The position numbers were made by a program, and so were the translations under genes. Source: Ignavibacteria bacterium (GTDB lineage: Bacteria > Bacteroidota > Ignavibacteria > Tepidaquicellales > Tepidaquicellaceae). From it: a stretch of DNA of 39,823 nt. Positions 16,317 to 18,321 of this stretch are shown in pieces. Below the pieces are notes generated by a model. That model was given only the letters and a program-made list of their open reading frames with translations. It was not told the DNA's origin and did no database searches. Each line of letters starts with the position of its first letter. Within the stretch, counting starts at the first letter, position 1. The stretch covers positions 1 through 39,823 of the forward strand of contig JAFGII010000111.1 in assembly GCA_016929695.1 (NCBI GenBank), written 5' to 3'.

Positions 16317-16357
16317 AAAGAGGGATTATAATCAAGCGATAATCCCTCTTTCTTTTT
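16317..16357 (+). terminator. Rho-independent terminator after lepB
   Basis: A perfect 13-bp stem, AAAGAGGGATTAT (16317-16329) with its complement at 16339-16351, has a nine-base loop and is followed by CTTTTTG. It lies 28 bases after the lepB stop and can also act on the convergent tRNA transcript, because the stem starts in A residues that read as U on the other strand. Confidence 0.85.
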
Positions 16358-16358
16358 G

Positions 16359-16431
16359 AGCTAGCGAGGGGATTTGAACCCCTGACCTGCTAATTACGAA
16401 TCAGCTGCTCTACCAACTGAGCTACGCTAGC
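16359..16431 (-). tRNA. tRNA-Thr (anticodon CGT)
   Basis: Reading the minus strand, a 73-base tRNA folds completely: acceptor GCTAGCG/CGCTAGC, D arm GCTC/GAGC, anticodon stem GCTGA/TTAGC around loop TTCGTAA (anticodon CGT, reading ACG threonine codons), variable loop AGGTC, T arm AGGGG/CCCCT with loop TTCAAAT, and discriminator T. The CCA end is not encoded. It is convergent with lepB across the shared terminator. Its upstream side is only five bases from the inverted repeat of the four-helix-bundle element, so its promoter must lie inside that element or further up in the ahcY transcript. Confidence 0.95.
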
Positions 16432-16435
16432 AATT

Positions 16436-16463
16436 CAATTAAGAATTAAAAATTAAGAATTAA
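16436..16463. repeat. Left 28-bp terminal inverted repeat
   Basis: Exact reverse complement of 16958-16985, built from two copies of CAATTAAGAATTAAA-like sequence. It lies between the tRNA and the stop of the four-helix-bundle gene. Confidence 0.85.
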
Positions 16464-16540
16464 TAATATTGAAAAAATATTTATAATTACATATTTAAAA
16501 GAACTTTTTTCAGTATGTAGTTAGTTCTAAAATAATATTT

Positions 16541-16897
16541 TCAAGAACGAGCTTTAGAAGTAATAATTATACTGCTTAATATCTTAGATATTTCTTCACA
16601 ATCATCATATATAGACTTAAACAACTTGTTATCAAGATAATTACATTCTTTCAATAATTTTAACCAAAATTTAGTCTCTCTTGTTTCTTTATATGCAATT
16701 GATAAGATACTAATGAAATCTTTCCTTGTTCTGCCGCCGATTGCCTCTTCAATATTTGCACCTACCGATGTTCCGCTTCTTAACACTTGTTTTGAAAGAA
16801 CAAATTCTTTCTTTTTCTCATTTAAATATTTGTATAAATTAACTATCCTCACAGCAAATTTAAAACTCTTCTCAACGATAACATTAGAATCCTTCAA
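16541..16897 (-). CDS. Four-helix-bundle protein (23S rRNA intervening-sequence / S23 type)
   Basis: A 119-residue all-helical protein of the family first found inside 23S rRNA intervening sequences and also related to Avd proteins of diversity-generating retroelements. The signature LRSGTSVGANIEEA is at about residues 40-53, followed by KDFISILSIAYKETRETKFWL. Molecular function is unknown; basic surface and relatives suggest nucleic-acid binding. No ATG fits: the likely start is TTG at 16895-16897 (MKDSNVIVEKSF), with an in-frame stop within the repeat upstream. An ATA eight bases into the open stretch, where related genes may have ATG, hints at start-codon decay. It is not inside an rRNA here but within an inverted-repeat element. 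Confidence 0.85.
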   Translation of the reverse strand: MKDSNVIVEKSFKFAVRIVNLYKYLNEKKKEFVLSKQVLRSGTSVGANIEEAIGGRTRKDFISILSIAYKETRETKFWLKLLKECNYLDNKLFKSIYDDCEEISKILSSIIITSKARS

Positions 16898-16910
16898 TAG
16901 TCTTACTATA

Positions 16911-16985
16911 ATTTTTAATTCTTAATTTATAGTTTATTCTTAATTCTTAATTTATTCTTAATTCTTAATTTTTAATTCTTAATTG
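16911..16985. repeat. Right terminal inverted repeat with extra AT-rich units
   Basis: The outer 28 bases (16958-16985) are the exact complement of 16436-16463. The rest is at least five further copies of a TTAATTC/TTCTTAA unit with small spacers. The array begins next to the start of the four-helix-bundle gene and so forms its leader. Confidence 0.85.
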
Positions 16986-16986
16986 A

Positions 16987-18252
16987 TTACGTTCCTTCCG
17001 AAAAATCGTTGATATATCTTTCCTGTTCTTTCGTAAGTTTATCTATGTTTAAGCCCATTGTTCTGAGTTTCAGTCCTGCAATTTCCTGGTCCATTTTTTC
17101 CGGAAGTACATACACATCAACGGGTAATTTATTTCCGGATTTATGAGATTCAACAAGTTTCAACTGTGCATTAAACTGATTTGAGAAGCTCATATCCATT
17201 ACTTCCGAAGGATGTCCTTCTGCAGCAGATAGATTGACAAGTCTTCCTTTTGCAAGCAAGAATATTTTCCTGCCGTTTTTTAATGTATATTCTTCGTTAT
17301 TTTTTCTTAATTCTCTTTTTCTTTTCTTAATTGCTTCCAAGTCTTTAATGTTTATCTCGCAGTCATAATGACCGGTATTACAAACGATTGCACCGTCTTT
17401 CATGAATTTGAAATGCCTGCCGACGATTACATCCTTTACTCCGGTTGCAGTAACAAATATATCACCGACTTTTGCCGCATCATCCATCTTCATTACTCTA
17501 TGTCCTTCAAGTGTTGCTTCTAATGCTGCAGTGGGTTTTACCTCAGTAATAATCGTATTTGCACCAAGACCTTTAGCTCTGCTTGCAACACCTTTTCCGC
17601 AATGACCGTAACCTGCTACCACAAAATTCTTTCCTGCAATTAATACTGATGTTGCTCTTAATATGCCGTCTATAGTTGATTGTCCTGTTCCATAGACATT
17701 ATCGAAATCCCATTTTGTTATTGAATCATTAACCGCATAAACAGGATATTTCAATGCACCCTGCTCCGCCATCTTACGCAATCTGTGAACTCCGGTTGTC
17801 GTTTCTTCGGTTCCCCCAATCATAGTCGGGATTAAATTTTTATATCTGTTGTGAACAGTAAATATTAAATCAGCACCGTCGTCAAGAGTTAACTGAGGTT
17901 TGAAATCCAGTGTTCTTTCTATGCACCAGTAGAATTCTTTTGTATTCATTCCGTGCCATGCGTAAATCGAAACACCTTCTTTTGCAAGTGCCGCAGCAAC
18001 GTCATCCTGTGTCGATAAAGGATTGCATCCGCTCCAGCTGACCTGTGCACCGGCGTCCACAAATGTTCTCACCAATACGGCGGTTTCCTTGGTAACATGC
18101 AAACATCCTGCTATCCTGTATCCTTTAAAAGGTTTGGTCTTTTTAAATTTTTCCCTGAGTGCGGCTAAAACAGGCATCCTTGATTCAGCCCAGTCAATTC
18201 TTCTTTTTCCCTGCTCTGCTAATTTTAAATCTTTAACTTTATATTTTGGCAT
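16987..18252 (-). CDS. ahcY: Adenosylhomocysteinase
   Basis: Hydrolyses S-adenosylhomocysteine to adenosine and homocysteine, clearing the product of methyl transfer. The protein is 421 residues from the ATG at 18250-18252 (MPKYKVKD); an in-frame TTG six bases earlier is less likely. The NAD-binding loop is GYGHCGKGVASRAKGLG; GCNPLSTQDDVAAAL, the catalytic-site SITKWDFDN and the C-terminal SAAEGHPSEVMDMSF stretch are all present. The short form, without the ~40-residue insertion of many bacterial enzymes, resembles archaeal and Thermotoga homologues. The stop codon lies one base from the outer edge of the inverted-repeat element. Confidence 0.96.
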   Translation of the reverse strand: MPKYKVKDLKLAEQGKRRIDWAESRMPVLAALREKFKKTKPFKGYRIAGCLHVTKETAVLVRTFVDAGAQVSWSGCNPLSTQDDVAAALAKEGVSIYAWHGMNTKEFYWCIERTLDFKPQLTLDDGADLIFTVHNRYKNLIPTMIGGTEETTTGVHRLRKMAEQGALKYPVYAVNDSITKWDFDNVYGTGQSTIDGILRATSVLIAGKNFVVAGYGHCGKGVASRAKGLGANTIITEVKPTAALEATLEGHRVMKMDDAAKVGDIFVTATGVKDVIVGRHFKFMKDGAIVCNTGHYDCEINIKDLEAIKKRKRELRKNNEEYTLKNGRKIFLLAKGRLVNLSAAEGHPSEVMDMSFSNQFNAQLKLVESHKSGNKLPVDVYVLPEKMDQEIAGLKLRTMGLNIDKLTKEQERYINDFSEGT

Positions 18253-18321
18253 ATACAATTTTAATTATTAAAAAATTCTTTTAATTTAATCATTTCACTT
18301 TTCTTTCTAAAGTCGAAAATA

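Follow-up and report, generated by a model that had tools for sequence, protein, structure and literature searches.

The element described here lies in a 39,823-nt contig of an Ignavibacteria bacterium (JAFGII010000111.1, assembly GCA_016929695.1); this whole stretch is called the window below, and the assembly is called the source genome. On the minus strand, the ahcY (adenosylhomocysteinase) open reading frame (ORF, 16987..18258) is followed by a called tRNA-Thr(CGT) gene (16358..16431), and ahcY precedes the same tRNA in relatives. The gap between the two genes is entirely occupied by one element (16432..16986, minus strand), in sense with both of them, and empty junctions occur in relatives. 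Its gene (16541..16897, minus strand, TTG start) encodes a 118-amino-acid (aa) four-helix-bundle protein of the S23/IVP family, as judged from the PF05635 and TIGR02436 profiles and the predicted fold.

The two ends of the element are inverted copies of each other. Over 28 bases, positions 16437-16464 are the exact reverse complement of positions 16957-16984, the longest exact inverted match between the flanks is 29 bases, and the extended arms (16435-16468 and 16953-16986) are 34 nt long with 97% identity. In 500 dinucleotide shuffles of both flanks, the longest inverted match was 14 bases, and the longest direct match between the real flanks was 7. The element stands five bases from the tRNA gene and two bases from the ahcY ORF. 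An earlier sequence-only reading had described a small S23/Avd-like gene enclosed by perfect 28-base inverted repeats that fill the ahcY–tRNA gap, and the coordinates of both neighbours and the shuffles agree with it. That reading overlooked the heptamer nature of the repeats and its generality.

Each arm is a tandem array of heptamers, (AATTAAG)n at one end of the element and the inverted copy at the other. Read on the minus strand, the outer part of the upstream arm (16953..16986) is built of AATTAAG and AATTAAA units and runs on inwards to about 16908 as imperfect heptamers (16908..16952, minus strand; direct repeat families D1-D3), and the downstream arm (16435..16468, minus strand) carries the same units inverted, as CTTAATT. 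The RNA of the window is predicted to fold into a 29-bp panhandle, to whose stem the downstream arm belongs (z -3.26; 0 of 100 shuffles equally stable), and the tRNA alone scored above gathering in an Rfam scan. The PF05635 gene is the only gene of the element, which holds no transposase and no HUH (Y1) transposase gene; the claim that gene and inverted ends form a unit without transposase, outside 23S rRNA, is supported. Beyond the tRNA, between it and a lepB-like ORF, lies a perfect 13-bp hairpin with a T run (16317-16351) that looks like a terminator.

The 118-aa ORF matched PF05635 with 106 bits (cut-off 33.8) and TIGR02436 with 115 bits (cut-off 24). Its predicted structure is a four-helix bundle (pLDDT 94.7), closest to the S23-family structures 2RLD (TM-score 0.88) and 2GSC (0.83), followed by Avd (about 0.78 to 4DWL); the score against 8UB7, a ribonucleoprotein subunit of a diversity-generating retroelement (DGR), was 0.77. 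The S23 protein is under strong purifying selection. A Xanthomonas S23 homologue is reported to form a homopentameric ring (PMC4990558).

Inverted flanks are general among S23 genes

The source genome has four S23 genes, each inside inverted heptamer arrays with its own unit: AATTAAG, GAATTTT...AAAATTC, GTGATTA...TAATCAC and GTCAGGA...TCCTGAC. Four different inverted heptamers around four members of one family are a clue to generality. We collected S23 loci from relatives, from the phylum, from named genomes of many phyla, from three copy-rich genomes, from non-Bacteroidota genomes and from cyanobacterial plasmids, and scored 150-nt flanks for inverted local matches with a cut-off of at least 28.

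Inverted flanks were found at 102 of 171 S23 genes (60%) but at only 17 of 1,004 other, mechanically called ORFs of the same stretches (1.7%; Fisher 2.5e-81, a P-value that overstates independence, as the loci are best-scoring family members, mostly from Bacteroidota and kin by descent). Direct repeats in the same flanks were not enriched over controls, and we therefore rejected insertion into a pre-existing direct array. When 1,013 unselected ORFs were screened blind, 24 reached the cut-off and seven of these were S23 genes; further high scorers were insertion sequence (IS) transposase-like ORFs and two RAYT (REP-associated transposase) genes, named from sequence without a profile search, for which inverted ends are expected. 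The RAYT-like genes with inverted flanking repeats among the high-scoring controls are at L102:8588-9143 and L109:8208-8754.

The non-Bacteroidota set comprised 30 loci, about half of them duplicates of loci collected before, and 11 of the 14 new ones reached the cut-off, GC-rich loci included. On cyanobacterial plasmids, S23 loci have inverted arrays with the units AGGGTGT, ACAGGTG and AGTAGGG. The same integrase-S23 segment, with identical AGGGTGT arms, is present on plasmids 1 and 2 of Calothrix brevissima NIES-22, and in plasmids of Anabaena sp. 90 (L342) and Pseudanabaena galeata (L346) an S23 gene with heptamer arrays stands between cas6 and cas4, the operon in L342 being annotated as type I-D CRISPR.

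S23 genes were in sense with both neighbours at 144 of 165 loci (87%, against 60% of controls), and the median gap was 58 nt upstream of the gene and 46 nt downstream of it. No 23S rRNA motif lay within 3 kb of any of 185 S23 loci. The family is common, with S23/IVP genes in 218 of 296 sampled genomes of the phylum and up to 19 matches per genome.

A period of 7 (or 14) was detected in 110 of 185 upstream arms and 102 of 185 downstream arms, compared with 9 of 363 control windows; some arms have a period of 8 or of 9, and within an element both arms share the same period. The sequence of the arms varies from locus to locus, yet within each locus they match inverted, and no end sequence of the kind that copies of an IS or a miniature inverted-repeat transposable element (MITE) have in common was found. 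Arms are also polar, with phased AG upstream and hence CT downstream. Although AG is enriched and polar, much of this signal already arises from setting the phase by AG alone, and we rejected a fixed core motif. Arrays have a median of about five units per arm, and a link of this number to the pentameric S23 ring is speculation.

Arms change together at the ahcY–tRNA junction

An orthologous S23 gene lies after ahcY and before the tRNA in genomes G010, G033, G015, G018 and G003, and in G011 it is a pseudogene. The tRNA of the relatives has the same opening sequence, and it is tRNA-Thr wherever ARAGORN was run. The junction holds no element in G007 (9 nt), G009 (50 nt), G012 and G014, and it lacks an S23 gene in G001 and G002, which belong to the same genus. 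Empty sites, which the sequence-only reading had proposed to look for in close relatives, exist. The element is therefore old at this place and has been repeatedly lost or gained.

The orthologues have other heptamers than the element in the window, inverted in each case, so the arms have been replaced on both sides together. Across 13 junctions with orthologous elements, an arm scored 19.5 against its own partner, 15.0 against the partner of an orthologue and 11.0 against random sequence, and its own partner was the better match in 38 of 54 cases. The sequence-only reading had asked whether homologues at unrelated sites are bounded by the same inverted repeats; they are indeed flanked by inverted repeats, but each locus has its own heptamer. 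It had also held that, if all relatives kept the gene here with unrelated repeats, the gene would be an ordinary one in AT-rich sequence. Relatives do keep it here with other heptamers, so that half of the premise stands, while the conclusion is contradicted by the survey.

S23 genes occur at different junctions of the same operons

In the metH-metF operon of various Bacteroidota, related S23 genes occupy either the metH1-metH2 or the metH2-metF junction. Where the metH2-metF junction is empty, in L091 and L103, the stop and start codons touch or are two bases apart, and in Pedobacter and Mucilaginibacter the metH1/metH2 site is an uninterrupted metH linker. In several Flavobacteriaceae (metH loci L091-L113), the last part of the first metH ORF and the opening part of the second are encoded by the arms, so that the element coincides with a split of metH, a gene that is fused in these two genera.

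Among Flavobacterium-like genomes, S23 proteins with 83-91% identity are located at different junctions around fad genes. For one relocated pair (L135/L145), the main nucleotide similarity starts at the S23 start codon. Before a fadB-like gene in L145 (about 2300-2453), both arms are present without an S23 gene, the same junction is full in L169, and the S23 gene of the L145 genome is located elsewhere, so this arm pair is possibly a gene-less derivative. Pseudogenes and partial copies of S23 are many. From these comparisons we infer that the S23 unit can relocate, probably rarely and without proliferation.

Heptamer arrays without an S23 gene

The AATTAAG array also occurs without an S23 gene at about 20 further places in the source genome, some of which are contig ends. 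Several contigs (C23, C48, C4 and C15) start inside AATTAAG arrays, which indicates that the assembly breaks there. A count over 397 kb of the source genome gave 17 arrays of seven-mers, 11 of eight-mers and 4 of nine-mers, the arrays of S23 loci within the sampled stretches being counted too. The corresponding numbers in 400 kb from another genome of the genus, which has just one weak S23 hit, were 0, 1 and 2. Per 400 kb, there were 7 intergenic seven-mer arrays in ten S23-rich genomes and 1 in ten S23-poor genomes. Gene-less inverted arm pairs were few in the source genome, so no MITE-like form is common there. Long octamer arrays (GATTGGAT type) and nonamer arrays without S23 were seen in the source genome at L247:1-302, L240:7938-8045 and L246:15483-15585.

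TAACTGA repeats are intergenic heptamers whose solo arrays near start codons have been read as translational signals, with the suggestion that a repeat-binding protein might itself be a mobile element (MacGregor 2015, PMC4679880). The solo arrays of S23-rich genomes are of the same kind, and one S23 arm (L107) contains TAACTGA itself.

Discussion

We put a probability of roughly 0.5 on the reading that the element belongs to a very large group of minimal genetic elements, apparently not described before, in which an S23 gene is carried between inverted short-tandem arrays. In the open-access literature we found no paper that links inverted repeats or heptamers to S23 genes located outside rRNA. 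Sequence comparisons show the general occurrence of this architecture, the joint change of arms that are specific to each locus, sense orientation, empty sites, purifying selection on the protein and closely related proteins at different junctions, and the reading draws on them. We favour a minimal element acting at the DNA level, and the best reading is that it resembles a free-standing rRNA intervening sequence.

Such elements sit in sense at narrow operon junctions and are presumably transcribed with the operon. Gene and arms would relocate together, rarely and at the DNA level, and the position between stop and start codons may be why insertion is tolerated. What the S23 protein recognises in the arms may be the spacing of repeats and a hairpin shape, not a fixed sequence, while slippage, together with the copying of one arm from the other, would rewrite both arms and leave solo arrays behind. 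The intervening sequences of 23S rRNA would then be elements of this kind inserted into rRNA. A wider proposition, which we hold tentatively, is that these are one-gene elements found across bacteria whose ends are set by architecture (inverted short-period arrays in a polar AG...CT register), concertedly rewritten and read by the S23 ring, and that both rRNA intervening sequences and the intergenic heptamers of many bacteria derive from them.

The main rival to a DNA-level element is an intervening sequence of mRNA, which we consider unlikely. Here the arms would pair in the operon transcript, RNase III would free the S23 segment, and selection on the stem would keep the arms complementary. 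The gene family and layout are those of the Coxiella rRNA intervening sequence, with ends forming a 28-bp stem (PMC4990558), the RNA of the window folds into the panhandle, and S23 elements lie in sense within operons. A stem, however, would not need tandem seven-mer arrays of changing sequence, and selected RNA pairing would give an excess of G-U among arm mismatches. We counted 252 G-U against 315 A-C-type mismatches, and 36 against 62 in a second set; as G-U was no commoner than A-C, we rejected RNA-stem selection on the arms, whose complementarity looks like DNA-level copying. These counts also bear on a retroelement moved by reverse transcriptase in trans, with S23 acting like Avd. The fold common to S23, Avd and the DGR ribonucleoprotein subunit speaks for it. 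Yet there is no template or variable repeat near the gene, and RVT_1 had no match in 7 of 11 S23-rich genomes, that is, in the source genome and 6 of the 10 others; the reverse transcriptase with template and variable repeats that defines a DGR was not found for the element. This route is very improbable and, for present-day spread, largely refuted. The sequence-only reading had suggested a minimal element that moves in trans or by way of RNA, and the RNA route has no support from the RVT_1 search or the mismatch counts.

It is improbable, too, that S23 is an ordinary, immobile host gene with its own regulatory arrays, whose protein binds them as DNA or RNA and controls itself or its neighbours. 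The strong purifying selection, the orthologues retained at the ahcY–tRNA junction across genera and the translational role proposed for solo arrays near start codons (PMC4679880) would fit it; the very patchy presence, the empty junctions, the many pseudogenes and partial copies, the related proteins at different, unrelated junctions and the insertion exactly between stop and start codons would not. Simple chance, an ordinary gene in AT-rich, repeat-rich intergenic sequence, is refuted by the survey and has next to no probability. The low complexity of the tandem arms and the recurrence of their heptamer at other places of the genome would fit chance, but shuffles never exceeded 14 exact bases, other ORFs of the same stretches lack the pattern, the enrichment is limited to the inverted relation, and GC-rich loci have it too.

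Several points weigh against the minimal-element reading. Purifying selection and long residence at one junction suit a host gene as well, about 40% of S23 loci fall under the score cut-off (many of them with visible degenerate arms), the solo-array counts are small, and contact between the S23 protein and the arms is putative. We rejected recent transposition within a genome, since paralogues in the three copy-rich genomes are at most 59% identical, and in one lineage each genome has a single close S23 copy. Transfer and loss could produce the same picture as relocation. No target-site duplication was evident between full and empty junctions, among relatives too divergent to define the ends to the base.

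Each known system compared here has part of the architecture. Like the 23S rRNA intervening sequence with an S23/IVP ORF (Coxiella, PMC4990558), the element has complementary ends around an S23 gene, a transcribed locus, a similar size and no transposase; unlike it, the element lies outside the 23S rRNA gene, as the other loci do (0 of 185 in rRNA), in protein operons or beside tRNA, with short-period tandem arrays of locus-specific sequence as ends. With TAACTGA repeats (PMC4679880) and the short tandem repeats of cyanobacteria (STRR type) it has in common tandem seven-mers in junctions, often just before start codons, but those are described as direct and without a linked gene, whereas S23 arrays are inverted pairs around a gene. 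Inverted repeats beside the gene, with solo copies scattered elsewhere, also characterise REP/RAYT (TnpA-REP) systems, and RAYT genes scored high in the same screen; the S23 element, however, has no HUH transposase, and its ends are locus-specific tandem arrays, not palindromes. Avd has the same fold as S23, but the S23 element is without the reverse transcriptase, template repeat and variable repeat of Avd systems. With IS elements and MITEs it shares inverted ends, apparent relocation between sites and gene-less remnants; it differs from them in that it lacks a transposase and a fixed end sequence and does not multiply within a genome, and no target duplication was seen.

The S23/IVP family takes its name from rRNA, yet none of the 185 loci lies there, and the name misleads if its members are elements that end in arrays. 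For mobile DNA, it would be unusual to have ends whose form is fixed but whose sequence is not. Links of S23 with neighbouring systems, such as the cas6-S23-cas4 CRISPR operons, may be hitch-hiking at junctions. If the reading is true, the origin of rRNA intervening sequences and the origin of intergenic heptamers would become one testable question.
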